A DNA stretch of 64,000 nucleotides from Pseudothioclava arenosa (GTDB lineage: Bacteria; Pseudomonadota; Alphaproteobacteria; Rhodobacterales; Rhodobacteraceae): NCBI RefSeq assembly GCF_002358085.1, contig NZ_NTJD01000002.1, forward strand, positions 310,001 through 374,000, in the 5' to 3' direction. Positions 591 to 53,604 of the stretch are shown here, piece after piece (the first letter of the stretch is position 1; the number at the start of each line of letters is the position of its first letter). A program made the translations under genes and the position numbers. The notes under the pieces are model-generated. The model was not told the DNA's origin and searched no databases. It was given only the letters and a program-made list of their open reading frames with translations.

Positions 591-721
591 GAGGGGGCGC
601 TGCCCCCGCCGAGGCAGGGCCTCGGCCCCCCGGGATATTTCGGGCAAAATGAAGAGAAGCCCCTGCTTTCACGGAGCCTCAAATACTCCGGGGGAGCCCG
701 AAGGGCGGGGGCGGAGCCCCC
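591..721. repeat. Family B intergenic inverted repeat, copy 1
   Basis: About 130 bases fill the gap between the convergent ends of the 69-aa gene and the dCTP deaminase. Two imperfect arms (627-654, containing GGGATATTTCGGGCAAAATG, and 666-694, containing CAAATACTCCGGGGG) are flanked by short GC hairpins (gggggcgctgccccc at 594-607 and gggggcggagccccc at 707-721). The same core recurs at 19880-20010 and 25408-25539, in the opposite orientation. Likely acts as a two-way terminator; mobility is possible but not shown. Confidence 0.75.
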
Positions 722-11713: not shown

Positions 11714-12829
11714 ATGCAGAGCCTCCTGAACATCCTGCGCCTGACGATCAAGGAGCTGCGCGCCTTTCGCCGCGACAAGGTGATGATCGTGCTGATGATC
11801 TATGTCTTCACGCTGGCGGTTTGGCTGGTCTCCAGCGCGGCCTCGACCGAGGTGCGCGACCTGACGGTGGCGGTGGTCGACGAAGACCACAGTCCGCTCT
11901 CGACCCGGCTGATCGACGCGATCCGCGGCCCGCTGTTCAAGGCGCCCGAGTTGCTGACGGCGCAACAGGCCGATCAGGCACAGCTTGACGGCAAATACGT
12001 GCTGGTCGTCGAAATTCCCCCCGATTTCGAGCGCGACCTGCGCGCCGGGCGCGAGGCGACGCTGATGGTCTTTGTCGATGCGACCGCGGTCGCCTTCGCG
12101 GGCAACGGATCGAGTTTCATCCAGCATGTGCTCTCGCAGGAGGTCTCCGACTACCTCTCCCCCGGCACCAGCTCCGCGAGCGCGCTCAATGTCGTGCTGC
12201 GCAGCCGCTTCAACCCGAACATGACCGGCGAGTGGTTTGCCTCGGTGATGCAGCTGATGAACAGCATCACGATCCTGATGCTGATCCTCTCGGGCTCCTC
12301 GATGATCCGCGAGCGCGAGCATGGCACGATCGAGCATGTGCTGGTGATGCCGGTGCGCCCGCATGAGATCGTGCTGTCGAAGATCTTCGCGATGGGGGCG
12401 GTGATCCTCGCGGCCTCGGTGGCGAGCCTCCTTCTGGTGGTCGAGGGCTTTATGGGGGTGCCGGTCTCGGGCTCGCTGGGGCTGTTCGCGCTGGGCACGG
12501 GGCTTTACGTGATCGCGGTCGGCTCGATCGGGCTGATGCTGGCGAGCTTCACCCATAACATGGGGCAATACGGGCTTTTGGTGATCCCGGTGATCATCGT
12601 GATGATCCTGCTGTCGGGCGGCATGACGCCGCTGGAATCGATGCCCGAATGGCTGCAGATCCTGATGCGCACGATCAGCCCGGCACCGCATTTCGTGATT
12701 TTCGCGCAGGCGGTGCTCTATCGGGGCGCGGGGATCGGGCTGGTGCTGAACGAGCTGGCGATGATCTCGGGGATGTCGCTGGTGGCGCTCGCGCTGGTGC
12801 TCGCGCGGTTCCGCAAGATCCTGTCCTGA
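11714..12829 (+). CDS. yhhJ: ABC-2 permease, YhhJ-type
   Basis: A 371-residue ABC-2 transporter permease. It has one N-terminal membrane helix (VMIVLMIYVFTLAVWLV), a periplasmic domain of about 150 residues, then five membrane helices including MNSITILMLILSGSSMIRE with the adjoining REREHGTIEHVLVMPVRP motif typical of DrrB/YhhJ permeases. It begins one base after the rbbA stop and presumably forms the second half of the membrane pore with the RbbA permease domain. The substrate is unknown. Confidence 0.9.
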   Translation: MQSLLNILRLTIKELRAFRRDKVMIVLMIYVFTLAVWLVSSAASTEVRDLTVAVVDEDHSPLSTRLIDAIRGPLFKAPELLTAQQADQAQLDGKYVLVVEIPPDFERDLRAGREATLMVFVDATAVAFAGNGSSFIQHVLSQEVSDYLSPGTSSASALNVVLRSRFNPNMTGEWFASVMQLMNSITILMLILSGSSMIREREHGTIEHVLVMPVRPHEIVLSKIFAMGAVILAASVASLLLVVEGFMGVPVSGSLGLFALGTGLYVIAVGSIGLMLASFTHNMGQYGLLVIPVIIVMILLSGGMTPLESMPEWLQILMRTISPAPHFVIFAQAVLYRGAGIGLVLNELAMISGMSLVALALVLARFRKILS

Positions 12830-12841
12830 GCGCGCCCCCCG

Positions 12842-12870
12842 TTGACCTTTCGCACGCGTCCCGCTAGCGG
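12842..12870 (+). promoter_or_regulatory. Candidate promoter of uup
   Basis: TTGACC (12842-12847), a 17-base spacer and TAGCGG (12865-12870) lie in the 47-base gap before uup. The -35 box fits the alphaproteobacterial consensus; the -10 is poor. If real, the transcript would start within a few bases of the start codon. Confidence 0.35.
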
Positions 12871-12876
12871 GGAGCC

Positions 12877-14697
12877 ATGGCACGCGCACCCCTTTTGCAG
12901 CTCTCCGGCATCTCGCTCACCTTCGGTGGTAACCCCGTTTTCGACGGGCTCGATCTGGTCGTCCAGCAGGGCGACCGGGTGGCCCTGGTCGGGCGCAACG
13001 GCTCGGGCAAGTCGACGCTGATGAAGGTGATGGCGGGGCTGATCGAGCCCGACCATGGCGAGCGTGTCGTGCCTGCCGGCGTGCGCGTGGGCTACATGGA
13101 GCAGGAACCCGATCTGTCGGGCTTTGCGACGCTGGGCGAATTTGCCGCCTCGGCGCTCGATCCGTCCGAAGCCTACCGTGTCGAGATGGTGGCCGAGGGG
13201 CTGAAGTTCCGCCCCGAGACGCCGATCGCGACCGCCTCGGGCGGGGAGCGCCGCCGCGCCGCGCTGGCGAAGCTCTTGGCCGAGGCGCCCGAGCTGATGC
13301 TTCTGGACGAGCCGACCAACCACCTCGACATCCAGGCGATTGGCTGGCTCGAAGAACAGCTGCGCGATACCCGCACCGCCTTCGTGCTGATCTCGCACGA
13401 CCGCGCCTTTTTGCGGCATCTGACGCGCGCGACCTTGTGGATCGACCGCGGGCAGGTGCGCCGGCAGGAACGCGGCTTTGAGGCGTTCGAGGAGTGGCGT
13501 GAGCAGGTCTGGGCCGAAGAGGACGAGGCGCGTCACAAGCTCGATCGCAAGATCAAGGCCGAGGCGAAATGGGCGGTCGAGGGGATCTCGGCGCGGCGCA
13601 AGCGCAACATGGGCCGGGTGCGCGCGCTGCAGGATCTGCGCGCCGAACGCGCCGCCCAAATCCGCCGTCAGGGCACCGCCGCGCTGGAGCTGGACACCGC
13701 GCCGCAATCGGGCAAGCGGGTGATCGAAGCGCGCGGGCTGTGCAAGAGCTTTGGTGACAAGCAGATCGTGAAGAACTTCGACCTGCGCGTGATGCGCGGC
13801 GACCGCGTGGCCTTTGTCGGCCCGAATGGTGTCGGCAAGACCACGCTTTTGAAGATGCTGGTCGGCGAGGTTGCCCCCGATGCCGGCACGCTCACGCTGG
13901 GCAAGAACCTCGAAATCGCCGTCTTCGATCAGGCCCGCGCCACGCTGAATTTCGAGCAGACGCTCTGGGACGGGCTGGTCAACGACCCCGAGATGCGGGT
14001 CTCGGGACGCTCGGATCAGGTGATGGTGCGCGGCCAGCCCAAGCATGTCGTGGCCTATCTCAAGGACTTCCTGTTCGACGAGGCGCAGGCGCGCGCCCCG
14101 ATCGGCTCGCTCTCGGGGGGCGAACGTGCGCGGCTTTTGCTGGCGCGGATCATGGCGAAGCCCTCGAACCTCCTGATCCTCGACGAACCGACGAACGATC
14201 TCGATGTCGAGACGCTGGACCTGTTGCAGGATATCCTGGGCGAGTATGACGGCACGGTGCTGCTGGTCAGCCACGATCGCGATTTCATCGACCGCGTGGC
14301 GACCACGACGATCGCGATGGAGGGCGACGGGCGCGCGACCGTCTATGCCGGCGGCTGGACCGACTATCAGACCCAGCGCGCGCTGGCGGCCCCCGAGGCG
14401 GCGAAACCCGCTGCCGCGAAAAAGCCTGACGCCCCGAAAGAGGCTCCGGTCAAAGAAGCGCCGAAGAAATCCGGCCTGAGCTTTACCGAGAAACACCGCC
14501 TCGAAGAGCTTCCCGGCGTGATCGAAAAGCTCGAACGCGAAATCGGCAAGCTCAACGAATTGCTGTCCGACCCGGACCTGTTCACCCGCGAGCCGGTGAA
14601 ATTCGCCAAGGCCACCGAGATGCTGGGCGAGCGTCAGGCCGCGCTGGACGCCGCCGAGGAAGAGTGGCTCACGCTTGAAGAAAAAGCCGCAGGCTGA
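12877..14697 (+). CDS. uup: ABC-F family ATPase Uup
   Basis: A 606-residue soluble protein with two ABC domains and no membrane segment. Walker A motifs are GRNGSGKST (about 45) and GPNGVGKTT (about 318); signatures are ASGGERRR and LSGGERARL; Walker B segments are LLDEPTNHLDIQ and ILDEPTNDLDVE. The linker KIKAEAKWAVEGISARRKRN is Uup-like, and residues about 535-606 form the C-terminal coiled coil seen in Uup. ABC-F proteins act on the ribosome or on branched DNA; Uup affects transposon excision and ribosome function in E. coli. GGGGAG precedes the ATG. Confidence 0.92.
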   Translation: MARAPLLQLSGISLTFGGNPVFDGLDLVVQQGDRVALVGRNGSGKSTLMKVMAGLIEPDHGERVVPAGVRVGYMEQEPDLSGFATLGEFAASALDPSEAYRVEMVAEGLKFRPETPIATASGGERRRAALAKLLAEAPELMLLDEPTNHLDIQAIGWLEEQLRDTRTAFVLISHDRAFLRHLTRATLWIDRGQVRRQERGFEAFEEWREQVWAEEDEARHKLDRKIKAEAKWAVEGISARRKRNMGRVRALQDLRAERAAQIRRQGTAALELDTAPQSGKRVIEARGLCKSFGDKQIVKNFDLRVMRGDRVAFVGPNGVGKTTLLKMLVGEVAPDAGTLTLGKNLEIAVFDQARATLNFEQTLWDGLVNDPEMRVSGRSDQVMVRGQPKHVVAYLKDFLFDEAQARAPIGSLSGGERARLLLARIMAKPSNLLILDEPTNDLDVETLDLLQDILGEYDGTVLLVSHDRDFIDRVATTTIAMEGDGRATVYAGGWTDYQTQRALAAPEAAKPAAAKKPDAPKEAPVKEAPKKSGLSFTEKHRLEELPGVIEKLEREIGKLNELLSDPDLFTREPVKFAKATEMLGERQAALDAAEEEWLTLEEKAAG

Positions 14698-14730
14698 GCC
14701 TCTGGCTTGCCGCGGGACGCCTCCGGCGGG

Positions 14731-14809
14731 CGTATTGGGACCAAGAAGAAACAGATGACGCTGCGTCATTTCGAGTGGCGCTTGTCCTCTTCTTCTTGGG
14801 GAAAATACG
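14731..14809. repeat. Family A inverted repeat with enlarged loop
   Basis: Arms CGTATTGGGACCAAGAAGAA (14731-14750) and TTCTTCTTGGGGAAAATACG (14790-14809) match except for four central bases. The 39-base loop holds a second perfect palindrome, ATGACGC-T-GCGTCAT (14755-14769). Located between uup and the CoA racemase. Confidence 0.8.
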
Positions 14810-14819
14810 CTGCGGGGGT

Positions 14820-14840
14820 CCGGGGGCGCAAAGCCCCCGG
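14820..14840 (+). terminator. GC hairpin just upstream of the racemase ribosome site
   Basis: An 8-bp perfect stem CCGGGGGC/GCCCCCGG with a five-base loop ends five bases before the GGGAGG of the CoA racemase. It has no T-run. It is part of the family A repeat block and could reduce expression of the downstream gene. Confidence 0.45.
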
Positions 14841-14855
14841 CGTCGGGAGGATAGC

Positions 14856-15971
14856 ATGACCACAACCGCCACCGGCCCGCTTGCGGGGCTGCGCATCGTC
14901 GAGTTCTCGGGGCTCGGCCCCACGCCCTTTGCCGCCATGTGCCTGGCCGATATGGGTGCCGAGGTGATCCGCATCGCGCGCCCCGGATCGGCGGGCGCGA
15001 AGGCGCATGTGCTGGGGCTGGAAAACGACCTGCTGGACCGAGGCCGCGATGTCGTCGAGCTGGACCTGAAATCGCCCGAGGGCCGGGCCGCCGCGCGCGC
15101 CCTGATCGCGCGGGCCGATGCGCTGATCGAGGGGATGCGCCCGGGCGTGATGGAGCGGCTGGGGCTGGGGCCTGACGATTTCCCCGACCATCCCGCGCTG
15201 GTCTATGGCCGGATGACCGGCTGGGGGCAGGAGGGGCCGCTGGCCGACCGCGCGGGGCACGACATCAATTACATCGCGCTGAGCGGCGCGCTTCATGCGA
15301 TGGGGGGCGACGCGCCTGCGATCCCGCTGAACCTGCTGGGGGATTTCGGCGGCGGCGGGATCTACCTTGCCTTCGGGATGCTCGCGGCGCTGTGGCAGGC
15401 GCGCGTCTCGGGGCAGGGGCAGGTGGTGGATTGCGCGATCACCGATGGCGTCGCGCATCTGCTGGCGATGATCACCGGCATGGCGCAGGAAGGCCTCTGG
15501 GCGGATCGGCGCGGCGCGAACCTGCTTGATGGCGCGGCGCCTTTTTACACGACCTATGCCTGCGCCTGCGGCGGGCACATGGCCGTGGGCGCGCTTGAGC
15601 CGCAGTTCTATGCCGCGCTGCTGTCGGGGCTGGAGCTGGAGCCAGCCGCGCTGCCCGACCGTGCCCGGGCCGAGAACTGGCCTGCCCTGCGCGAGGTCTT
15701 TGCGCGGCGCTTCGCCAGCCGGTCGCGCAACGATTGGGCGGCGGTGTTCGCGGCGACTGACGCCTGCGCAACCCCGGTGTTGAGCCTTGCCGAGGCGCGC
15801 GCCCATCCGCAAAACGCCGCCCGCGGCGCCTATCTGCGCCACGAGGGCCGCGATCAGCCCGCGCCCGCGCCGCGGCTCTCGCGCACGCCGGGGGCGATCG
15901 GGACGGGCTCGGGGCAGCGCCGGATCGCAGCCGCCGAGGCACTCGCGCGCTGGGGCGCGAAACTGCCTTAA
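14856..15971 (+). CDS. CoA racemase/transferase of the CaiB-BaiF (alpha-methylacyl-CoA racemase) family
   Basis: A 371-residue class III CoA-transferase-fold protein. MTTTATGPLAGLRIVEFSGL, PTPFAAMCLADMGAEVIRI, MRPGVMERLGLGPDD, LVYGRMTGWGQEGPLADRAG and GHDINYIALSGALH are hallmarks; the RAGHDINY segment fits alpha-methylacyl-CoA racemases better than formyl- or carnitine-CoA transferases. It would epimerise 2-methylacyl-CoA in branched-chain fatty-acid breakdown. Start 14856 is fixed by GGGAGG nine bases upstream; 14775 would run into the repeat. The gene stands alone between uup and rplU. Confidence 0.85.
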   Translation: MTTTATGPLAGLRIVEFSGLGPTPFAAMCLADMGAEVIRIARPGSAGAKAHVLGLENDLLDRGRDVVELDLKSPEGRAAARALIARADALIEGMRPGVMERLGLGPDDFPDHPALVYGRMTGWGQEGPLADRAGHDINYIALSGALHAMGGDAPAIPLNLLGDFGGGGIYLAFGMLAALWQARVSGQGQVVDCAITDGVAHLLAMITGMAQEGLWADRRGANLLDGAAPFYTTYACACGGHMAVGALEPQFYAALLSGLELEPAALPDRARAENWPALREVFARRFASRSRNDWAAVFAATDACATPVLSLAEARAHPQNAARGAYLRHEGRDQPAPAPRLSRTPGAIGTGSGQRRIAAAEALARWGAKLP

Positions 15972-15975
15972 ATCG

Positions 15976-16004
15976 CTTGACTCGCGCCCGGCGATCCCGG
16001 ATAA
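15976..16004 (+). promoter_or_regulatory. Candidate promoter of rplU-rpmA
   Basis: CTTGAC (15976-15981), 17 bases, and GGATAA (15999-16004) form a good sigma-70-type promoter right after the racemase stop, 139 bases ahead of rplU. Confidence 0.6.
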
Positions 16005-16012
16005 GCCGCGAA

Positions 16013-16050
16013 CCGGGCGGGAGGAGTCTCTTTCCGCCCGGCTCATTTTT
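16013..16050 (+). terminator. Hairpin with T-run in the rplU leader
   Basis: CCGGGCGG (16013-16020) pairs with CCGCCCGG (16034-16041) and is followed by CTCATTTTT. It has the form of an intrinsic terminator. It lies downstream of the candidate promoter, so it may be an attenuator of rplU or simply the racemase terminator. Confidence 0.6.
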
Positions 16051-16142
16051 GATCTCGCCCGCAAGGGCGCGCTGTCCGACGGCGGGGTGACCCGGCAACA
16101 CCGCAAGGGGCCACAGGACGCGGCAGGAAAAAGGAAAGACCC

Positions 16143-16529
16143 ATGTTTGCGGTCCTCAAGACTGGCGGCAAGCAATACAAGGTTCAGGCGGGCGATGTGC
16201 TCCGCGTCGAACTGATTGCGGCCGAAGCTGGCGACAAAGTCCAGTTCAACGAAATTCTGATGGTTGGCGGCGACACGCTGACCGTTGGCGCCCCCACTGT
16301 TGAAGGCGCTGCGGTCGTGGCCGAGGTCATCGACAACATCAAGGCCGACAAGGTCATCACCTATCACAAGCGCCGCCGCAAACATTCGTCGCAGCGCACC
16401 CGTGGCCACCGTCAGAAACTGACGCTGGTGCGCGTGACCGAGGTTCTCGCCTCGGGCGCCGCTGCCTCGGGCGTGAAGGAAGCCGTTGGCACCGCTGTTG
16501 CGCGCCGTGCCGCGCATGAAGCGAAGTAA
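16143..16529 (+). CDS. rplU: 50S ribosomal protein L21
   Basis: A 128-residue bL21. MFAVLKTGGKQYKVQAGDVL and KRRRKHSSQRTRGHRQ are family signatures, the latter being the RNA-binding basic loop. A C-terminal extension of about 25 Ala-rich residues (GVKEAVGTAVARRAAHEAK) goes beyond the 103-residue E. coli protein, as is usual in alphaproteobacteria. rpmA follows after 14 bases, the universal L21-L27 pair. Confidence 0.97.
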   Translation: MFAVLKTGGKQYKVQAGDVLRVELIAAEAGDKVQFNEILMVGGDTLTVGAPTVEGAAVVAEVIDNIKADKVITYHKRRRKHSSQRTRGHRQKLTLVRVTEVLASGAAASGVKEAVGTAVARRAAHEAK

Positions 16530-16543
16530 GAGGAGACTGATCC

Positions 16544-16813
16544 ATGGCACACAAGAAAGCAGGCGGTTCGTCCCGTAACGGCCGCGACTCCGCCGGTCGT
16601 CGCCTTGGCGTGAAACTCTACGGTGGCCAGGAAGCGATTCCGGGCAACATCATCGTGCGTCAGCGCGGCACCAAATGGTGGCCGGGTGAAGGCGTCGGTA
16701 TGGGGAAAGATCACACCATCTTCGCCACGTCCGAAGGCAAAGTCACCTTCCGCAAAGGCCTCAAGGGCCGCACCTTCATTTCGGTTCTTCCCACCGCGGA
16801 GGCGGCCGAATAA
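16544..16813 (+). CDS. rpmA: 50S ribosomal protein L27
   Basis: An 89-residue bL27 beginning [16 protein letters not shown], so no N-terminal prepeptide of the Firmicute type is present; the N-terminus reaches the peptidyl-transferase centre. [18 protein letters not shown] is typical. AGAGGAG precedes the start. A strong terminator follows, closing the rplU-rpmA unit. Confidence 0.97.
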
Positions 16814-16836
16814 GCCGATACCGAACCAGGTAGTTT

Positions 16837-16866
16837 GGGGGATCGGCGCAAGCCGGTCCCCCTTTT
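16837..16866 (+). terminator. Rho-independent terminator after rpmA
   Basis: An 11-bp stem (GGGGGATCGGC at 16837-16847 with 16852-16862; one mismatch) closed by a GCAA tetraloop and followed by TTTTCGTTT. Confidence 0.9.
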
Positions 16867-17012
16867 CGTTTCGGGACGTGGCCGTTGGGCCAGGAGGAGC
16901 GGACCGACGCGGGAATGTGAAGACCTGTCATCTTGTCATGTCTTTGCCGGATTTTAAGTTTAGGGCGTTAGGAAAGAGAATTTCCGCGTCCCATGCGTTC
17001 GAGGAGGACCGC

Positions 17013-17564
17013 ATGCTTCAGGAAAAGATTTCGGGGCTTCAGGCCCATGATCAGCCTGTGATCGAGGCCGAACGCTTCGTTCTGCGCCCGCCGCGCGCGT
17101 CTGATGCGGGGCTGATCGCGCATTATGCTGGCGACAAGCGCGTCGCCGAAGGCACGCGTGCGATCCCGCATCCGCTGCCGCCGGGCACGGCCGAGAATTT
17201 CGTCGCCCGCGCCATGGCGGAAAAACACGCCGAGGATGTCTGGGTGCTCGACGGCTCCGCGCAGGGGCTGGCCGAGGTGCTCGGCGTGATCTCGCTGCAG
17301 CGCGTCGAGGTCGACCAGTCCGAGATCGGCTACTGGATCGGGCCGGGCTTCTGGAACGCGGGCTTCGCTTCCGAGGCGGTGGCGGCGCTGGTCGCGGCCA
17401 ACCCGCATCGCGCGCGCACGCTCTTTGCCGAAGTGTTTCAGGACAATCCCGGCTCGGCCCGCGTCCTGACCAATTGCGGCTTCGAATACCTCGGCGATGC
17501 CGAGGCCTGGTCGGTCGCGCGCGGCCGTTCGGTCCCGACCTGGACCTATCTGCGCAAGATGTGA
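17013..17564 (+). CDS. GNAT family acetyltransferase, RimJ/RimL type
   Basis: A 183-residue acetyl-CoA-dependent N-acetyltransferase. The pattern VIEAERFVLRPPRASDAGLI at the N-terminus, the strand EIGYWIGPGFWNAGFASEAV (the acetyl-CoA-binding segment) and FQDNPGSARVLTNCGFEYLG are typical of RimJ/RimL-like members that modify protein N-termini or small amines. The substrate cannot be deduced. Start 17013 is preceded by GAGGAGG; upstream in-frame codons run into rpmA. It is monocistronic between a terminator and a family A repeat. Confidence 0.87.
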   Translation: MLQEKISGLQAHDQPVIEAERFVLRPPRASDAGLIAHYAGDKRVAEGTRAIPHPLPPGTAENFVARAMAEKHAEDVWVLDGSAQGLAEVLGVISLQRVEVDQSEIGYWIGPGFWNAGFASEAVAALVAANPHRARTLFAEVFQDNPGSARVLTNCGFEYLGDAEAWSVARGRSVPTWTYLRKM

Positions 17565-17601
17565 GTCTGCCGGGAGGGCCAGCCCTCCCGGACCCTCCCG
17601 G

Positions 17602-17651
17602 CGTATTTGGGCCAAGAAGAAGCGAAGGGGTTTCTTCTTGGCCCAAATACG
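17602..17651. repeat. Family A inverted repeat, perfect copy
   Basis: A perfect 20-bp inverted repeat: CGTATTTGGGCCAAGAAGAA (17602-17621), a ten-base spacer, then its exact complement (17632-17651). A smaller hairpin GCCGGGAGGG...CCCTCCCGG at about 17568-17590 precedes it. Located between the GNAT gene and obgE. Confidence 0.92.
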
Positions 17652-17684
17652 CACCGGCGCGGCGCGCCCCTTCGGAAAGCCCGC

Positions 17685-19874
<2,190 letters not shown>

Positions 19875-19879
19875 CCGGG

Positions 19880-20010
19880 CAGGGGGCGCTGCCCCCTCTT
19901 TTTCTGCGAAAAATTCACCCCCGGAGTATTTCGGGCTCAGTGAAAGGGGTGTCCTTCATTTTGCCGCAAATATCCCGGGGGGCGTCCGAAGGACGGGAGG
20001 CGGAGCCCCC
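19880..20010. repeat. Family B intergenic inverted repeat, copy 2
   Basis: Fills the gap between the convergent ends of proB and the M20 peptidase. Contains GGGGGCGCTGCCCCC, then CGGAGTATTTCGGGCTCAGTGAA, a short loop, CCTTCATTTTGCCGCAAATA, CCCGGGGGGCGTCCGAAGGACGGG and GGCGGAGCCCCC. Very similar to copy 3 at 25408-25539, with long identical stretches. Confidence 0.85.
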
Positions 20011-20019
20011 TTTGCCGTT

Positions 20020-21393
20020 TCAGCCCGCGATGCGGTCGAGGATGCGTGCCCAGGAGCGGATGCCCTTGTGGAAACACTCGACGTCGTATTTCTCGTTCGG
20101 CGAGTGGATCTGATCGTCGTCGCGGGCGAAGCCGATGAGCATCGCGTCGGTGTCGAGAAGCGTTTTGAAATAGCCCGCGATCGGGATCGAGCCGCCGCAG
20201 CCGACGAAGGCGGCGGGCGTGCCCCATTCTTCCGAAAGCGCCTGGCGGGCAGCCTCGAAGGCGGGGTTTTCCAGCGACATCATCGAGGCCGGGCTGGCTT
20301 CGGGTTCACGCCAGTCGACGCTGACATCGGCGGGCAGTTGCGCCTCGAACCACTTGCGGAAATTGGCCAGAACCTTTTCCGGGTCCTGCTGGCCGACGAG
20401 GCGGAACGAGATTTTCGCATGCGCCTCGGCAGGCAGCACGGTCTTGAAGCCCGCGCCGGTATAGCCGCCCCAGATGCCGTTGATCTCGGCGGTGGGGCGT
20501 GACCAGATCTGTTCGAGCGGGCTGCGATCGGCCTCGCCGGCGGGCTGCGACAGGCCGACCTCGCCGAGGAAGCTGGTGGCGTCGAAGCCAAGGCCTTGCC
20601 ATTGCGCGGCGACCTCTGGCGAGAGCTCGGCGACGCCGTCGTAGAAGCCCGGGATCGTGACGCGGCCCAGATCGTCCTGCAGGCTCCCGAGGATGTGGGT
20701 CAGCACGCGGATCGGGTTGATCGCGAGGCCGCCGAACATGCCCGAATGCAGGTCCTTGTTCGCGGCTTTCAGGGTCAGCTCGACCTTGGAGAGGCCGCGC
20801 AGCATGGTCACGATCGCGGGGGTGTCATGGCCGAAAAGCCCGGTGTCGCAGATCAGCGCGAGATCGGCGCTGAGCTCGTCGGCATTCTCTTTCATGAAGG
20901 GAATGAGCGAGGGCGAGCCTGATTCTTCCTCGCCCTCGAAGAAAATCGTCAGGTTGCCCGGTAAATCTCCCGTGACCTCACGCCAGGCGCGACAGGCTTC
21001 GAGGAAGGTCATCAGTTGACCCTTGTCATCCGAGGCGCCGCGGCCCCGGATCACCGCGCCTTTCGGGGTTTCCTCGATTGCGGGGTCGAAGGGGTCACGG
21101 CTCCAGAGAGACAGCGGGTCGACCGGCTGCACGTCGTAATGGCCGTAGAACAGGATATGCGGCCTCGGCGCCTCGTGGCGGGCGACGACCATCGGATGCC
21201 CGGGAGTGGTCCGTTTTTCCGCTTTGAAACCAATCTCTTGCAATTCGCGAACCAGCCAGTCGGCGGCGGCTTCGGTTTGCGGGATATAGGCGGGATCGGT
21301 GGAAATCGACGGGATCCGCAACAGGTCCAAAAGTCGCTCTTGCGCGGCGGGAAGATTTTCATCGATACGGGTGAGAATGGCCTCGAGTGACAT
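20020..21393 (-). CDS. M20 family metallopeptidase (dipeptidase)
   Basis: A 457-residue di-zinc amino-/dipeptidase of the M20 family. Visible motifs: FYGHYDVQPVDP (first zinc ligands and catalytic Asp), GRGASDDKG (bridging Asp), FFEGEEESGS (catalytic Glu pair), ALICDTGLFG, and the C-terminal GFARDDDQIHSPNEKYD with the last zinc-binding His. The dimerisation domain is inserted at about residues 200-350. The closest characterised proteins are broad-specificity cytosolic dipeptidases. Start 21393 has GGAGG upstream; a longer start at 21522 would overlap the hemA regulatory region. Confidence 0.92.
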   Translation of the reverse strand: MSLEAILTRIDENLPAAQERLLDLLRIPSISTDPAYIPQTEAAADWLVRELQEIGFKAEKRTTPGHPMVVARHEAPRPHILFYGHYDVQPVDPLSLWSRDPFDPAIEETPKGAVIRGRGASDDKGQLMTFLEACRAWREVTGDLPGNLTIFFEGEEESGSPSLIPFMKENADELSADLALICDTGLFGHDTPAIVTMLRGLSKVELTLKAANKDLHSGMFGGLAINPIRVLTHILGSLQDDLGRVTIPGFYDGVAELSPEVAAQWQGLGFDATSFLGEVGLSQPAGEADRSPLEQIWSRPTAEINGIWGGYTGAGFKTVLPAEAHAKISFRLVGQQDPEKVLANFRKWFEAQLPADVSVDWREPEASPASMMSLENPAFEAARQALSEEWGTPAAFVGCGGSIPIAGYFKTLLDTDAMLIGFARDDDQIHSPNEKYDVECFHKGIRSWARILDRIAG

Positions 21394-21531
21394 GGGCGCC
21401 TCCTTTTGGCGGCAGCCTAGCGAGGCGCACGGGATAGTCCAGAAGGGCGTGGGGGAAATTTCATCTTCCAAAAATTGAATGTTTGCAAAAGATGTGGATC
21501 TGCGACATTTTTGCGCTCCCAAGGGGGAGGA

Positions 21532-21545
21532 TTGACCTTTATCAA
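21532..21545. promoter_or_regulatory. FnrL-type binding site upstream of hemA
   Basis: TTGACCTTTATCAA fits the FNR/FnrL consensus TTGAY-N4-RTCAA exactly. Its centre is 67 bases ahead of the hemA start codon. In Rhodobacter, hemA transcription is known to respond to FnrL under low oxygen. Confidence 0.88.
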
Positions 21546-21604
21546 GGTCGCGCGCAGGCAGGGAAGCTAGGCAATAGCCCAGCGAATAGGCGAGGATTAC
21601 ACCG

Positions 21605-22834
21605 ATGAACTACGATCACGCTCTGGAACAGGCGATCACCCGGCTCCACGAAGAAGGCCGTTATCGCACCTTTATCGATATCGAGCGTGAGAAGGGGAAC
21701 TTCCCGAAAGCGACCTGGAACCGCCCCGACGGCGCGCGCCAGGAAATCACCGTCTGGTGTGGCAACGACTATCTGGGCATGGGCCAGCACCCGGCGGTTC
21801 TGAGCGCGATGCACGAAGCGCTGGACGCGGTGGGCGCGGGCTCGGGCGGCACGCGCAACATCTCGGGCACGACGGCCTATCACAAGCGCCTCGAGACCGA
21901 GATCGCGGGGCTGCATGGCAAGGAGGCCGCGCTGGTCTTCTCCTCGGCCTATATCGCCAATGACGCGACGCTTTCGACCCTGCGCATTCTGTTCCCCGGC
22001 CTGATCATCTATTCCGACGAGCTGAACCACGCCTCGATGATCGAGGGCATCCGCCGCGGCGGTGGCCACAAGCGGATCTTCCGCCACAACGATCTCGCCC
22101 ACCTGCGCCAGCTTCTTGAGGCCGACGATCCGGCTGCGCCGAAGCTGATCGCCTTTGAGTCGATCTATTCGATGGATGGCGACATTGGCCCGATCAAGGG
22201 CTTCTGCGATCTGGCTGACGAGTTCGGCGCGCTGACCTATCTCGACGAGGTGCACGCGGTCGGCATGTATGGCCGTCACGGCGGCGGCATCTCGGAGCGC
22301 GACAACCTCGCGCATCGCATCGACATCATCAACGGCACGCTGGGCAAGGCCTTTGGCGTCTTCGGCGGCTATGTCGCGGCCTCGGCCCGCATGGTCGACG
22401 CGATCCGCTCCTACGCGCCGGGCTTCATCTTCACCACCTCGCTGCCGCCGGCAGTCGCGGCGGGCGCTGCGGCCTCGATCGCCTTCCTCAAGACCGAAGA
22501 GGGCCAGAAACTGCGTGACGCCCAGCAGCTGCACGCCAAGATCCTCAAGATGCGCCTGCGCGCGCTTGGCCTGCCGATCATCGACCATGGCACCCATATC
22601 GTGCCGGTCATCATCGGCGATCCCGTGCACTGCAAGGCGCTCTCGGACATGCTGCTGTCGGAATTCGGCATCTACGTGCAGCCGATCAACTTCCCGACCG
22701 TGCCGCGTGGCACCGAACGGCTGCGTTTCACGCCCTCGCCGGTGCATACCACGGACCAGATCGACCACCTCGTGCGCTCGATCGACAGCCTGTGGTCGCG
22801 CTGTGCGCTGAATCGTGCCGAAGCGAGCGCCTGA
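21605..22834 (+). CDS. hemA: 5-aminolevulinate synthase
   Basis: A 409-residue PLP enzyme that condenses glycine and succinyl-CoA to 5-aminolevulinate, the committed step of tetrapyrrole (haem, bacteriochlorophyll, cobalamin) synthesis by the C4 route. Signatures include [38 protein letters not shown] with Asp214, and [13 protein letters not shown] with the PLP-binding Lys248. It matches the length of rhodobacterial HemA. The promoter region carries a perfect FnrL site, so expression should rise when oxygen falls. Monocistronic as far as visible. Confidence 0.97.
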
Positions 22835-22945
22835 GCTTTTTCTGCCGATGCATCGTTCACGCGGCTGTGTTAGTCTCGTAGCAAGTTTCGTGAATAGCAC
22901 GACGCGAATCGGCAAGATTTAGCGATATTGGGGCAGGACAGGCGC

Positions 22946-24196
22946 ATGATCGGGCGGAAGGACGGACCTTCGGCACAAGAAGAGGTCAAACCGAAAGGCT
23001 TTGACGACTTCGAGCTTCGGCTAGGTGATGTGATGCGCGGCGAGCGGGCGACGCTCGCCAAGTCGCTCCTTGATGTTCAGCGCGAACTCCGGATCAAGGC
23101 CTCGCATATCGCGGCGATCGAAGCCTGCGACGTCGATGCCTTCGAGACCCCCTCGTTCATCGCCGGTTACGTGCGCTCCTACGCGCGCTATCTGGGTATG
23201 GACCCGGACTGGGCCTTTGAGCGCTTCTGCAAAGAGGCGGGCTTCACCCCCACCCATGGTATGGCCGCGGCCGCTTCGGGCCCGAAACGCGCGCGTCCGA
23301 TCGTGGCCGAGCCGCTGGCCGACCCGAACGCGAGCTTCGTGCCGCGTGGCGAGGCCTTCTGGACCAAGATCGAGCCGCGCGCTGTCGGCTCGGTTCTGGT
23401 GCTTCTGCTGCTGGCCAGCGGGATCGGCTATGGCGGCTGGTCGGTGCTGCAAGAGGTGCAGCGCGTGCAGCTGGCCCCGGTCGATCAGGTGCCGGGCGTT
23501 CTGGCCGAGCTTGACCCGCTGCAATCCGTGCGTCCCATCGAAACCGCCGAAGCCGTCGGCACGATGCCCGAGCTGCCCTCGACCGAGGCGCTTGATCGCA
23601 TCTATCGCCCCGCCGCGCTCGAAGTGCCCAAACTCGTGTCCCGCGACGGGCCGATCGCCGCGATCGACCCGAACAGCACCGGCGTTCTGGCCGGGCTGAG
23701 CGCGCCGACGCAGGATGCGCCCGTCGCCACCGCCGCCGATGACCCAACCGCGCTTGCCTCGGCCGAGCCGCTGGTGCGCGCGCTTGGCGAAGACGCCCCC
23801 GAGGTCGAGATTCTCGCGGTGCGCCCGTCCTGGGTGCGGATCGTCTCGGCGGAAGGCACGGTGATCTTTGAAAAGGTGCTCGATGCTGGCGAACGCTACG
23901 CGCTGCCGCGGCTCGAACAGCCGCCGGTGATGCGCACGGGCGAGTCGGGCGCGATCTATTTCGCGGTGAATGGCGTGGCCCATGGCCCGGCTGGCGCGCG
24001 CGGCGAGGTGACCAAGAACATCACCCTCTCGCCCGAGGCGCTGTCGCAGAAATTCGCTGTCGCCGATCTGGGGCGCGACGCCGACTTGGCAAGCATGATC
24101 GCCGTGGCCGATGCCGGCCCGATCGCCGCTCCGGCGCCCGAGGTTCTGCCCGCTCCGGCCAATGCGCTGCGCCCGCGCCAGCGCCCCGCGCAGTAA
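22946..24196 (+). CDS. rodZ: RodZ-like helix-turn-helix membrane protein
   Basis: A 416-residue protein. Residues about 20-120 hold a Cro-like helix-turn-helix (LGDVMRGERATLAKSLLDVQ, IKASHIAAIEACDVDAF, FIAGYVRSYARYLGMD) as in RodZ, which links MreB to the cell-wall synthesis machine. A single membrane segment follows (SVLVLLLLASGIGYGGW, about 148-166), a Pro/Ala-rich linker, and a C-terminal DUF4115 domain (VRPSWVRIVSAEGTVIFEK). The ATG at 22946 is preferred; the upstream TTG at 22928 lacks a ribosome site. It precedes ispG, the same pair as in E. coli. Confidence 0.85.
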   Translation: MIGRKDGPSAQEEVKPKGFDDFELRLGDVMRGERATLAKSLLDVQRELRIKASHIAAIEACDVDAFETPSFIAGYVRSYARYLGMDPDWAFERFCKEAGFTPTHGMAAAASGPKRARPIVAEPLADPNASFVPRGEAFWTKIEPRAVGSVLVLLLLASGIGYGGWSVLQEVQRVQLAPVDQVPGVLAELDPLQSVRPIETAEAVGTMPELPSTEALDRIYRPAALEVPKLVSRDGPIAAIDPNSTGVLAGLSAPTQDAPVATAADDPTALASAEPLVRALGEDAPEVEILAVRPSWVRIVSAEGTVIFEKVLDAGERYALPRLEQPPVMRTGESGAIYFAVNGVAHGPAGARGEVTKNITLSPEALSQKFAVADLGRDADLASMIAVADAGPIAAPAPEVLPAPANALRPRQRPAQ

Positions 24197-24282
24197 CACC
24201 AAGCTGATCCCTGATCTCGCAACAGCCGTTGCCCTCGGGCGGCGGCTGACTTACGTTCCGGCCAAAGCCGAAGGAGATGCGC

Positions 24283-25404
24283 ATGTCGCTCAATCACATC
24301 CGCCCGTGGCGCAATGTCTACCGCCGCAAGTCGCGCCAGATCATGGTCGGCAATGTGCCGGTGGGGGGCGACGCGCCGATCTCGGTGCAGACGATGACCA
24401 ACACCGACAGCTCGGATGTGAAGGCGACTCTGGCGCAGGTGATCCGCGCGGCGGATGTGGGGGCCGATATCGTGCGGGTCTCGACGCCCGACGAATCCTC
24501 GACCCGTGCCCTGCGCGAGATTTGCCGCGAAAGCCCGGTGCCGATCGTGGCCGACATCCATTTCCACTACAAACGCGCGATCGAGGCCGCCGAGGCTGGC
24601 GCCGCCTGTCTGCGTATCAATCCGGGCAATATCGGCGATGCGAAGCGCGTGGCCGAGGTGGTGCGCGCCGCCAAGGACCACGGTTGCTCGATCCGCATCG
24701 GCGTGAACGCGGGCAGCCTCGAAAAGCACCTGCTGGAAAAATACGGCGAGCCTTGCCCCGAGGCCATGGTCGAAAGCGGTCTCGACCATATCAAGCTCCT
24801 GCAGGACAATGATTTTCACGAATTCAAGATCTCGGTGAAAGCCTCGGACGTGTTCCTCTCCGCCGCCGCCTATCAGGCGCTGGCCGAAGTGACCGACGCG
24901 CCCATTCACCTCGGCATTACCGAGGCGGGCGGGCTGATGGCGGGCACGGTGAAGTCGGCGATCGGGCTGGGCAACCTGCTGTGGATGGGTATCGGCGACA
25001 CGCTGCGCGTCTCGCTTTCCGCCGATCCGGTCGAAGAGGTCAAGGTCGGCTTCGAGATCCTGAAGTCGCTCGGCCTGCGCACCCGCGGCGTGCAGATCAT
25101 CTCCTGCCCGAGCTGCGCACGGCAAGGCTTCGACGTGATCAAAACGGTCGAGGCGCTGGAGAAACGGCTCGAACACATCAAGACGCCGCTCAGCCTCTCG
25201 ATCATCGGCTGCGTGGTGAACGGGCCGGGCGAGGCGCTGATGACCGACATCGGCTTTACCGGCGGCGGTGCGGGCTCGGGGATGGTCTATCTGGCGGGCA
25301 AGCAGGACCACAAGCTGTCGAACGACAAGATGGTCGATCATATCGTCGAGCTGGTGGAGAAACGCGCCGCCGAGATCGAGGCCGTCGAGGCTGACGAGGC
25401 CTGA
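24283..25404 (+). CDS. ispG: 4-hydroxy-3-methylbut-2-enyl diphosphate synthase
   Basis: A 373-residue 4Fe-4S enzyme of the non-mevalonate isoprenoid pathway, acting on methylerythritol cyclodiphosphate. N-terminal TIM barrel: [58 protein letters not shown]-terminal cluster-binding residues: [11 protein letters not shown] and [11 protein letters not shown]. The ATG at 24283 is chosen over 24277 because AAGGAG ends at 24276, directly abutting 24277. The E. coli order rodZ-ispG is kept, with an 86-base gap. Confidence 0.96.
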
Positions 25405-25407
25405 GGG

Positions 25408-25539
25408 CAGGGGCCGCCGCCACCTCTTTTTCTGTGAAAAATTTACCCCCCGGAGTATTTCGGGCTCAGTGAAGGGGCCCCTTCATTTTGCCGTAAATAT
25501 CCCGGGGGGCGTCCGAAGGACGGGGGGGCAGAGCCCCCC
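25408..25539. repeat. Family B intergenic inverted repeat, copy 3
   Basis: Fills the gap between the convergent ends of ispG and the DsbA-family gene. Same modules as copy 2; here the two arms meet at a perfect 14-base palindrome, GAAGGGGCCCCTTC (25471-25484), with no loop. Confidence 0.85.
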
Positions 25540-25548
25540 TCGCGGGTC

Positions 25549-26295
25549 TCAGCCGCGCTGGTCGGCGACGATCTTTTCCATCACGTTCACCGGCGCATAA
25601 CCGCGCATCAGCTCGCCGCCGATGACGAAAGCCGGGGTGCCCGATATCCGCATCCGCTCGGCCAGCTGGTGGTTGGCGCGCAGCACGGCGGTGACCTCTT
25701 CTTCGTTCATCCGCTTGAGGAGCGCGTCAGCATCCAGCCCCTGATCCTTGGCAAGCCGCGACAGGCTTTCGAGGGTGAAGTCGCCGCGGAAGGCCATCAT
25801 CGCGTTATGCGTCTTTTCATAGGCTTCGGGGCCGGCGAGTTGCAGCACCGCGACGGCGAAGCGCGACGACAGGTCGGATTGCTCGCCCAGGATCGGGAAT
25901 TCCTTGACGATGAAGCGGATATTGCCATCGGATTCCAGAAGCTTTTCAACCTCTTGATAGGCCTTCTTGCAGTAGCCGCACTTGTAGTCGAGAAACTCGA
26001 CGATGGTCACGTCGCCGTCGGGGTTGCCACCGACCCAGGAATAACCGTCCTCGAACAGGTCCTTGGCGTTGGTCTCGACCAGCACCTGATCGTTCTGCGC
26101 CTCCATCGCCTGCTGGCGCTCTTCGAGGACATTGATCGACTCGATCAGTACTTCGGGATTGGCCATCAGATATTCGCGCACGGCCTCGCCGAAAGCGGCT
26201 TTCTCGCCCTCGCTCATCGCCGAGATATCGAAGGCGGCGGCGGGAAGCGCCATGGCGGAGCTGAGCGAAAGGGCGGCAAGAAGTTTACGGGTCAT
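25549..26295 (-). CDS. DsbA-family periplasmic thiol-disulfide protein
   Basis: A 248-residue secreted protein. A signal peptide (RKLLAALSLSSAMALPAAA) precedes an N-terminal helical stretch of about 50 residues, then a thioredoxin/DsbA fold with the active site CGYC (106-109) in FLDYKCGYCKKAYQEVEKL and the cis-Pro loop SGTPAFVIGG near the end. The helical N-terminus resembles that of ScsC-type, oligomeric DsbA proteins that act as disulfide isomerases; this is inference. Start 26295 is chosen to expose the signal peptide. It is divergent from the aminotransferase gene. Confidence 0.9.
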   Translation of the reverse strand: MTRKLLAALSLSSAMALPAAAFDISAMSEGEKAAFGEAVREYLMANPEVLIESINVLEERQQAMEAQNDQVLVETNAKDLFEDGYSWVGGNPDGDVTIVEFLDYKCGYCKKAYQEVEKLLESDGNIRFIVKEFPILGEQSDLSSRFAVAVLQLAGPEAYEKTHNAMMAFRGDFTLESLSRLAKDQGLDADALLKRMNEEEVTAVLRANHQLAERMRISGTPAFVIGGELMRGYAPVNVMEKIVADQRG

Positions 26296-43396: not shown

Positions 43397-44791
43397 ATGA
43401 CCGAGAAAAGCTTCGATATGATCGTTATTGGCGCAGGCCCGGGGGGCTATGTGGCCGCGATCCGGGGCGCGCAGCTTGGGCTGAATGTCGCCATCGTCGA
43501 GCGCGAGCATCTGGGCGGTATCTGCCTGAACTGGGGCTGTATCCCGACCAAGGCGCTCCTGCGCTCGGCCGAGGTGTTCCACCTGATGGAGCGCGCCAAG
43601 GATTTCGGCCTCTCGGCGGACAAGATCGGCTATGACCTCGACGCGGTCGTGCAGCGTTCGCGCGGCGTGGCCAAGCAGCTTTCCGGCGGCATCGGTCACC
43701 TGATGAAAAAGAACAAGATCACCGTCTTCATGGGCGCCGCGACGATCCCGGCCAAGGGCAAGGTTTCGGTCAAGACCGACAAGGGCACCGAGGAGCTGAG
43801 CGCGAAGGCCATCGTGCTGGCAACCGGCGCGCGGGCGCGTGAACTGCCGGGCCTTGAGGCCGATGGCGATCTGGTCTGGACCTACAAGCACGCGCTGGTG
43901 CCGAGCCGCATGCCCAAAAAACTGCTGGTTATCGGTTCGGGCGCGATCGGTATCGAATTCGCCAGCTTCTTCAATACCTTGGGCGCCGACACCACGGTCG
44001 TCGAGGTGATGGACCGCGTCCTGCCCGTCGAAGACGCCGAGATATCGGCCTTCGCCAAGAAGCAGTTCGAAAAGCAGGGCATGAAGATCCGCGAAAAGAC
44101 CACGGTCACCAAGCTCGACCGCGCCAAGGGCAAGGTCACCGCGCATCTCGAAGCCGGCGGCAAGACCGTCACCGAAGAGTTCGACACGGTGATCTCGGCG
44201 GTGGGCATCGTCGGCAATGTCGAGGGGCTGGGCCTCGAGGCGCTCGGCGTGAAAATCGACCGCACCCATGTCGTTGTCGATGAATTCTGCCGCACCGGCG
44301 TCGATGGGCTTTATGCCATCGGCGACATCGCCGGCGCGCCTTGGCTTGCCCACAAGGCCAGCCATGAAGGCGTGATGGTGGCCGAAGTGATCGCGGGCAA
44401 GCACGCCCACCCGATCAAACCCGGCTCGATCGCGGGCTGCACCTATTGCCACCCGCAGGTCGCCTCGGTTGGCATGACCGAAGCCAAGGCGAAAGAGGCG
44501 GGCTATCAGGTCAAGGTCGGCCGCTTCCCCTTCATTGGCAACGGCAAGGCGATCGCGCTTGGCGAGCCCGAAGGCTTGGTGAAAACCGTGTTCGATGCGA
44601 AAACCGGTGAGCTTCTGGGCGCGCATATGGTCGGCGCTGAGGTGACCGAGATGATCCAGGGCTATGTGATCGGCCGCACGCTGGAAACCGTCGAGGAAGA
44701 CCTGATGAACACCGTCTTCCCGCATCCGACGCTCTCGGAAATGATGCATGAATCGGTGCTGAACGCCTATGGGCGCGCGCTGCACATCTGA
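43397..44791 (+). CDS. lpd: Dihydrolipoyl dehydrogenase (E3)
   Basis: A 464-residue FAD disulfide oxidoreductase that reoxidises dihydrolipoamide of 2-oxoacid dehydrogenase or glycine-cleavage complexes, passing electrons to NAD. FAD motif GAGPGGYVAA; redox pair Cys43/Cys48 in GGICLNWGCIPTKA; NAD motif IGSGAIGIEFASF; second FAD motif YAIGDIAGAPWLAHKA; and the C-terminal His443-Glu448 pair in HPTLSE. No E1 or E2 genes are near, so the complex served is not shown. Strong GGAGG upstream. Confidence 0.96.
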   Translation: MTEKSFDMIVIGAGPGGYVAAIRGAQLGLNVAIVEREHLGGICLNWGCIPTKALLRSAEVFHLMERAKDFGLSADKIGYDLDAVVQRSRGVAKQLSGGIGHLMKKNKITVFMGAATIPAKGKVSVKTDKGTEELSAKAIVLATGARARELPGLEADGDLVWTYKHALVPSRMPKKLLVIGSGAIGIEFASFFNTLGADTTVVEVMDRVLPVEDAEISAFAKKQFEKQGMKIREKTTVTKLDRAKGKVTAHLEAGGKTVTEEFDTVISAVGIVGNVEGLGLEALGVKIDRTHVVVDEFCRTGVDGLYAIGDIAGAPWLAHKASHEGVMVAEVIAGKHAHPIKPGSIAGCTYCHPQVASVGMTEAKAKEAGYQVKVGRFPFIGNGKAIALGEPEGLVKTVFDAKTGELLGAHMVGAEVTEMIQGYVIGRTLETVEEDLMNTVFPHPTLSEMMHESVLNAYGRALHI

Positions 44792-44792
44792 T

Positions 44793-44812
44793 TTCTTCTT
44801 GGCGAAAATACG
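44793..44812 (+). repeat. Family A repeat, single arm
   Basis: TTCTTCTTGGCGAAAATACG matches the right arm of the family A inverted repeats, but no left arm is present. It starts one base after the lpd stop codon. Confidence 0.7.
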
Positions 44813-44824
44813 CCGGGGGAATGC

Positions 44825-44881: not shown

Positions 44882-45256
44882 TCAGCCGCGCTCGACGGCG
44901 CCGCCCGCCTGATACCAGTCGTAAAGCCCGCCGAGGTTATAGACCTCTTTGTAGCCCATCTGCGCCAGCATCTGCGCCGCCCCCTGGCTGCGCGCGCCCG
45001 ATGCGCAATAGAGCGCAACCGGCGTCTCCGGCGACAGCTCCTTGAGGCATTCCGGGCTCGCCGGATCGCATTTCATCTTGAGCGCCATCAGCGGCACATG
45101 CAGCGCGCCCGCCGCCTTGCCCTGACGCAGCTCCATCCCGTCGCGCACGTCGATCACGACCAGCTCGCCCGCCGCGTGACGCGCGACCGCATCCTTTGCC
45201 GAGATCCGCTGCACACCCGCACCACCCGGGCCGGCCGCCCGCAGGAAGTTGAACAT
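44882..45256 (-). CDS. Rhodanese-like domain protein
   Basis: A 124-residue single-domain sulfurtransferase. VVIDVRDGMELRQGKAAGAL, HVPLMAL and the active-site loop YCASGARSQGAAQML define the rhodanese fold; the nucleophile would be the Cys of CASGAR. A central segment with two further cysteines (KMKCDPASPECLKEL) is unusual and could bind metal or form a disulfide. It may move sulfane sulfur or act in stress signalling; no partner is adjacent. Cytosolic. Confidence 0.9.
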   Translation of the reverse strand: MFNFLRAAGPGGAGVQRISAKDAVARHAAGELVVIDVRDGMELRQGKAAGALHVPLMALKMKCDPASPECLKELSPETPVALYCASGARSQGAAQMLAQMGYKEVYNLGGLYDWYQAGGAVERG

Positions 45257-53405: not shown

Positions 53406-53506
53406 CGCATCCTCCCAAATCGCTATGAATTGAACACGTGTTTATTTTTCAATCCTTGCAAGAGTTTTGCAAGGTGGAGGGTGGGGGCGCTGCCCCCACA
53501 CCCCGG

Positions 53507-53557
53507 CGTATTTTTCCCAAGAAGAAGAGGGCCGGGTTTCTTCTTGGAAAAAATACG
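53507..53557. repeat. Family A inverted repeat between mmsA and the acyl-CoA dehydrogenase
   Basis: Arms CGTATTTTTCCCAAGAAGAA (53507-53526) and TTCTTCTTGGAAAAAATACG (53538-53557) match in 19 of 20 positions around an 11-base loop. A perfect GC hairpin GTGGGGGC-GCT-GCCCCCAC (53481-53499) stands just before it. Confidence 0.9.
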
Positions 53558-53604
53558 CGTGCCGGAGGCTGGCGGGCCGCCGCGAGGCAGCCCGCCGGGA
53601 CGGA

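Follow-up and report, generated by a model that had tools for sequence, protein, structure and literature searches.

A perfect inverted repeat stands in front of obgE. In the window, the whole stretch of 64,000 nucleotides of P. arenosa DNA analyzed here, the arms at 17602-17621 and 17632-17651 were exact reverse complements. A sequence-only reading had taken the repeat for a product of selection for pairing or of gene conversion between the arms. The inverted repeat consists of two facing copies of a 22-nt unit, which in Rhodobacter-type bacteria occurs just 3' of dozens of genes. We called this unit family A. At the main site, the unit GCGTATTTGGGCCAAGAAGAAG was located at 17601..17622 on the plus strand, sense relative to the upstream gene. 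Its facing arm, at 17631..17652 on the minus strand, was antisense in a codirectional gap, and a 10-nt loop separated the 20-mers. Directly 5' of the plus-strand unit, at 17570..17601 (+), lay a hairpin rich in GC, CCGGGAGGG-ccag-CCCTCCCGG (17570-17591), and after it ACCCTCCCGG. The upstream gene (17013-17564) gave no NCBIfam match when scanned as 16623-17564; we take it to be an acetyltransferase-type gene, and nothing depends on this. The codirectional gene after the site was obgE (17743..18768, +), which was used as the anchor for the same gap in relatives.

The 20-mer pattern CGTATTNNNNCCAAGAAGAA matched the window exactly seven times, where 0.15 matches were expected by chance at up to three mismatches, and the search at one to three mismatches gave no additional match. 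All seven were at the main site and at the places where copies had been read from the sequence before (14731-14809, 53507-53557 and 44793-44812). With the flanking letters the pattern was GCGTATTTNNNCCAAGAAGAAR, which gave six exact matches in the window and one with one mismatch. The unit at 14730..14751 (+) departed from the pattern once, with G in place of the last T of CGTATTT, and was faced by a unit at 14789..14810 (-) across a loop of 39 nt. A single unit at 44792..44813 (-) was sense-downstream of a rhodanese-domain gene (44882-45256, -) and convergent with lpd (43397-44791, +), and a hairpin with a T run was present upstream of it. The unit at 53506..53527 (+) was the antisense arm in a codirectional (- -) gap. 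It faced the unit at 53537..53558 (-), which was sense-downstream of the gene at 53605-55104 (-). The variable bases were TGGG/TGGG in the arms 17602/17651 and TTTC/TTTT in the arms 53507/53557 (19/20 match), and none were alike in the arms 14731/14809 (GGGA vs TTCC). An Rfam family for the repeat was rejected, as the sole window match at the gathering score was a tRNA.

The whole P. arenosa genome (2.79 Mb, 25 contigs) was searched with the 20-mer pattern. It occurred 66 times exactly and twice with one mismatch, and the reversed control pattern gave no match. This confirmed a real dispersed family. The DNA around all copies was retrieved, and 66 exact units were recovered for analysis. Sixteen letters of the pattern were fixed by the construction of the search. 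Among the letters left free, a G preceded the 20-mer in 66/66 units, a purine followed it in 66/66 (A 38, G 28), and the seventh base was T in 64/66. Beyond the G and purine flanks, no further sequence conservation was found. Used alone, CCAAGAAGAA occurred 75 times (reversed control 11), and 66 of these occurrences were exact units. The family A unit was GCGTATTT-NNN-CCAAGAAGAA-R, built from a 2-nt prefix and RTATTT, three bases free to vary, and a tail of roughly 10 nt before a purine. Its exactness was also observed in Rhodobacter capsulatus DSM 1710, where copies found by GTATTTNNNCCAAGAARAA alone, without the prefix letters, carried the prefix GC and the following purine in 81/81 cases.

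Sister units (family B) were also present. The chief sister units in P. arenosa were GTATTTNNNGCTCGATGAA, GTATTTNNNGCTCAGTGAA and ATATTTNNNGCAAAATGAA, and there were 172 matches of RTATTTNNNNCNNNNTGAA. Among the 100 listed of these 172 matches, the first base of RTATTT was tied to the tail across the free bases (GTATTT with CTC in 62/62, ATATTT with GCAAA in 37/38). Both patterns used in P. arenosa, combined, gave 238 units in its genome. In the window, three sister pairs consisted of facing units of unlike type on the two strands. These were ATATTTNNNGCAAAATGAA (635-653, +) facing GTATTTNNNGCTCCGTGAA (668-686, -) at 635..686, and GTATTTNNNGCTCAGTGAA (+) facing ATATTTNNNGCAAAATGAA (-) at both 19926..19973 and 25455..25500.

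Collected genomic copies were used to follow the relationship between the arms. It had been proposed that the four variable bases vary together in both arms. This likeness rested on two of three pairs within the window, and it failed beyond it. The three free bases (NNN) were identical in both arms of one of the 17 family A facing pairs (A/A) in P. arenosa, compared to 0.83 expected from shuffled arms, and this sole case was the pair at 17602-17651 itself. For R. capsulatus SP108 and R. viridis, loci were taken whose facing units enclose a loop of 4-30. Identity was found in 1/26 of the SP108 loci (2.6 expected), which leaned to unlikeness, and in 5/22 of the R. viridis loci (2.1 expected, P 0.054), which leaned to likeness. 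Compensatory changes across the arms had been suggested as a check, and the NNN identities in the three genomes did not support co-variation. The dialect letters described below were mixed within some facing pairs. In addition, 34/64 P. arenosa units had no facing arm within 50 nt, two mismatches being tolerated. Neither selection for pairing nor arm-to-arm gene conversion was supported. The family A arms are not under selection to pair.

Sister units gave a related result. Among the matches listed, one of 22 sister facing pairs was homotypic, compared to 7.0 expected (P 0.002), and GCTCGATGAA never faced itself, where 3.2 cases were expected (P 0.005). Since arms were no more alike than if dealt at random and sister types were rarely homotypic, the facing arms look, from their sequences, like two modules set against each other and not like a stem kept for pairing. 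Yet A units do face A.

Placement was determined with gene gaps assigned by a codon-usage gene caller. In P. arenosa, 45 of the 66 units were sense-downstream of a stop codon, 4-97 nt away from it (median 30); convergent gaps held 26 of these and codirectional gaps 19. Antisense units numbered 20/66, of which 18 were in codirectional gaps and 2, forming one pair, in a divergent gap; 1/66 was inside a called gene. The sequence-only reading had noted occurrence between codirectional genes, and this held at 3/4 window sites and for 37/66 units genome-wide. The contrast it drew with family B was only partly right, because 3/14 B units in the retrieved P. arenosa DNA were also in codirectional gaps. 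There were 17 facing A/A pairs and 5 pairs in which an A unit faced a sister unit, and for 27 units no partner was found within 100 nt.

Folding was calculated to describe the surroundings of the units. The 45 nt upstream of single sense units had a median of -19.6 kcal/mol (n=18), compared to -13.0 kcal/mol at other gene 3' ends (n=169; P 5e-5). Upstream folds of paired sense units were weaker than those of single sense units (-15.5 kcal/mol, n=27; P 0.02) and also somewhat stronger than those of the control 3' ends (P 0.01). A strong palindrome existed only in facing pairs and not within a unit, and four window units folded alone were weak (-0.8 to -2.8 kcal/mol, z +0.5 to -1.7). With stronger folds upstream of single units and hairpin-forming pairs elsewhere, a hairpin is available at many sites, from the upstream sequence or from the pair itself. 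When 12800-26000 was scanned in a simple way for terminators, 15 matches were obtained, where 9.9 were expected. One was inside the 14731/14809 loop, one overlapped the 25455 sister pair, and three were just upstream of the 19926 sister pair. None of the 15 consisted of an upstream hairpin that leads into an A unit. A T run after the hairpin was present at some units, and many had no good one.

CGTATTTNNNCCAAGAAGAA was found in 6 of the 394 family genomes searched, which were drawn from a larger group, with 64 copies in P. arenosa and 1-3 in five others. A congener (G001) had no copies of CGTATTTNNNCCAAGAAGAA, and its units carried other tails. Named records with facing pairs were R. capsulatus SP108, R. 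viridis JA737 and, once, R. capsulatus DSM 1710. At a tolerance of one mismatch, there were 117 copies in R. viridis, 95 in SP108 and 83 in DSM 1710. A looser grammar, RTATTTNNNSCNNRNWRAA, gave 229 matches in P. arenosa and none in the reversed control. Across 91 genomes it gave tens of matches in many family members with few or no control matches; some family members had none or few, and other families were near the control level.

Close relatives differed in the spelling of the tail. In three regions, R. capsulatus DSM 1710 and SP108 shared 93-94% identity. In DSM 1710, where the exact motif had looked scarce, the 81 exact copies had the tails GAAAAA (68) and GAAGAA (13). In SP108, the 89 exact copies had GAAGAA (86) and GAAAAA (3). 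P. arenosa had no GAAAAA and 64 exact GAAGAA, and R. viridis was mixed, with GAAAAA in 28/117 (one mismatch allowed in the 117). The two R. capsulatus strains were compared using 54 stretches that covered the listed DSM 1710 sites, plus the SP108 loci. Of the 81 DSM 1710 units, 18 had no retrieved SP108 counterpart, and of the 63 that could be aligned, 60 were exact and 3 inexact in SP108. Sites persist between relatives. Most of the SP108 DNA had been retrieved because it contains units, so that empty sites could hardly appear and this comparison says nothing firm about them.

At the 60 aligned sites, the tail letter differed in 51, the NNN positions in 8, 23 and 22, the final purine in 30 and the other positions in none, exactness of the conserved positions being the condition for counting a site. 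The dialect had thus switched at most sites together. The free positions were also fast, with 13-38% change per NNN position compared to 8.8% in noncoding DNA outside units nearby. Divergence around these sites was 5.5% in coding DNA, 12.6% at third codon positions and 12-37% at the ten loop positions. R. viridis compared with DSM 1710 gave a similar pattern (NNN 25, 53 and 47%; tail letter 69%; noncoding 13%). Changes of dialect and of NNN had no significant link over the 60 sites (30/21 vs 4/5, P 0.48). Whole-unit copying as the sole cause predicts joint change of the two and was not supported. Fast turnover confined to tight pairs was not supported either, since tight and other units did not differ significantly in changed NNN (24/40 vs 9/18, P 0.57) or changed dialect (35/40 vs 12/18, P 0.08). 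Loops of facing pairs were more alike across unrelated sites than shuffled loops in SP108, DSM 1710 and R. viridis; no such likeness was seen in P. arenosa. In 47 between-species pair comparisons, the reversed loop fitted better in 14 and the forward loop in 31. Unrelated loops often fit reversed too, so loop inversion is not claimed.

Whole types were switched as well. All six DSM 1710 units of the type GTATTT...GCAAGATGAA with a retrieved SP108 counterpart were of another type in SP108, namely three ATATTT...CCAAGGTGAA, two family A and one ATATTT...GCAAGATAAA. Two contigs with clusters resembling gene transfer agent (GTA) genes, from a viral collection, carried a hairpin and a facing pair with one arm differing in type (L176:8480-8580 and L175:12420-12520). 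At this one place, the type switch occurred behind a nearly identical hairpin. The L176 pair lay between terminase (PF03237/PF17289) and portal (PF04860) genes by Pfam, and the L175 pair was placed by frame order only. A hairpin with a facing pair inside a GTA-like cluster is possibly an attenuator; a 2024 paper addresses anti-termination in the Caulobacter GTA (PMC11150451).

The gap before obgE was also compared. It held an A/A pair in P. arenosa and an ATATTTNNNGCAAGATAAA pair in DSM 1710, SP108 and R. viridis; no RTATTT was found in this gap in the congener. In the named Rhodobacter genomes the gap is preceded by about 500 additional nt that appear to be coding. Free bases of the ATATTTNNNGCAAGATAAA pair (L161-L163) matched between the arms in DSM 1710 and R. 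viridis and not in SP108. With matching free bases in two of three genomes, the ATATTTNNNGCAAGATAAA type may behave differently from family A, as judged from three sequences only.

These results suggested, with somewhat better than even confidence on our part, a one-directional 3'-end module that would be homogenized genome-wide into species dialects. Each arm would be an independent, terminator-type module acting in one direction. It would be positioned just past the stop codon, often behind a GC-rich hairpin if single, or opposite a second hairpin-capable unit. As transcript or as DNA, the module would most likely help to end transcription or to set the 3' end of the mRNA, and in a facing pair each unit would serve one of the two directions. 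A homogenizing force would keep the spelling uniform genome-wide, be it a trans-acting reader to which one spelling is acceptable or copying between sites. Under such homogenization, each species would have its own dialect, switched jointly at most sites. The sweep of a lone letter would be best explained by a reader, and the type switches and fast NNN by copying. Against this reading, 20/66 units were antisense, many were without a good T run, the terminator scan gave no hairpin leading into an A unit, upstream folds of paired sense units were also somewhat stronger than those of controls, and several family genomes had no match of the looser grammar. Termination alone leaves the invariant 10-nt tail unexplained, and the lack of a significant link between dialect and NNN change speaks against copying of whole units.

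A putative DNA-binding protein would account for part of these observations in another way. It would read the bipartite 22-bp site and act as a roadblock that stops RNA polymerase or bounds a domain, with the letter co-evolving with the protein. Two invariant blocks around three free bases fit such a site, as does the scarcity of single-mismatch copies (2, compared to 66 exact). Some units were 3' of hairpin-T-run terminators, and the facing spacing was near-constant, with loops of 8-11 nt in 24/26 SP108 pairs and 21/22 R. viridis pairs at loci picked for loops of 4-30. The concerted letter change (51/60) is also consistent with it. However, several types per genome would require several readers or a tolerant one, and we regard the roadblock as unlikely, though worth serious attention.

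Ordinary intrinsic terminators, whose likeness would come from shared ancestry and local hypermutation of unpaired hairpin bases, seemed improbable to us. Like intrinsic or bidirectional terminators, the units were directly 3' of coding sequence, after stop codons (45/66 sense, 4-97 nt), with stronger folds upstream of single units and with units facing each other in convergent gaps. Hairpins nearby, and NNN and loops that were fast where the arms were slow, agree with this explanation. However, single units changed too, in NNN (10/39 base comparisons) and in dialect (9/13), and ancestry with hypermutation leaves the 51/60 letter switch and the whole-type switches unexplained. The definition of an intrinsic terminator includes no invariant tail of some 10 nt after the T-rich part and no genome-wide dialects.

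Rhodobacter receives GTA DNA with competence genes, and a signal for DNA uptake was considered. A putative receptor would prefer the motif, uptake bias would spread copies into 3' gaps and terminators, and the dialects would track the receptor. Uptake signals are the most similar in pattern among known systems. Those of Neisseriaceae and Pasteurellaceae (DUS/USS) are likewise short and highly conserved, with species dialects and facing terminator pairs, as described in PMC3630211 for DUS dialects and by Kingsford et al. 2007 (PMC1852404) for terminator pairs. The sharp motif, the species dialects (genome-specific and near-exact here, mixed in R. viridis) and the facing pairs in terminator position speak for this explanation. 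However, PMC1852404 gives generally at least 1,000 copies for uptake signals, with about 1,000 or more in DUS/USS, compared to tens to about 240 here (66 exact in P. arenosa, 66 to 117 per genome, 238 with both P. arenosa patterns). Unlike DUS/USS, the 22-nt unit is bipartite with a free spacer, its uptake role is putative, and several unlike types occur within one genome. Uptake with ordinary recombination also drags flanks along and does not predict NNN outpacing them. We consider an uptake signal quite improbable.

A mobile, REP-like palindromic repeat, with a transposase copying units or pairs into 3' gaps, deserves little credence. The units share with the REP/BIME/REPIN elements that accompany RAYT an extragenic 3' location, several types per genome and opposite-orientation doublets. 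Dispersal, the 8-11 nt loops of facing pairs and the loop vocabulary shared across sites in three relatives also speak for mobility. A REP/RAYT repeat was rejected on two counts, as the Y1/RAYT transposase (PF01797) was found in 0/4 genomes (P. arenosa, R. viridis, SP108 and DSM 1710; 5/14 control genomes were positive) and four window units folded alone showed no strong palindrome. The free NNN spacer and the unlike flanks also speak against a mobile repeat, and no clean occupied/empty pair was seen in a sample that could hardly show one.

We return to the one-directional module. No description of the motif in Rhodobacter was found by title or abstract among the papers listed in the literature searches, with subscription journals mostly outside the coverage. 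In its wider form, the proposal is tentative and in our judgment falls somewhat short of an even chance. Gene ends in Rhodobacter-type bacteria may carry a lineage-specific code of one-directional modules, kept by a sequence-specific reader or by in-place copying. The dialect would switch within a few percent of divergence (51/60), types would be swapped behind a nearly unchanged hairpin, and some types would avoid their own kind. That a bipartite, nearly invariant sequence changes its spelling jointly across dozens of gene ends, between strains with 93-94% identity, implies that recognition or homogenization is strong and acts across the genome. A reader, if there is one, would represent a new factor of Alphaproteobacteria, with a role in termination, as a barrier or in uptake. 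Copying as the cause would mean concerted evolution of 22-nt units for which no transposase is known. The two dialects of R. capsulatus, a genetic model, form a ready-made pair for testing.
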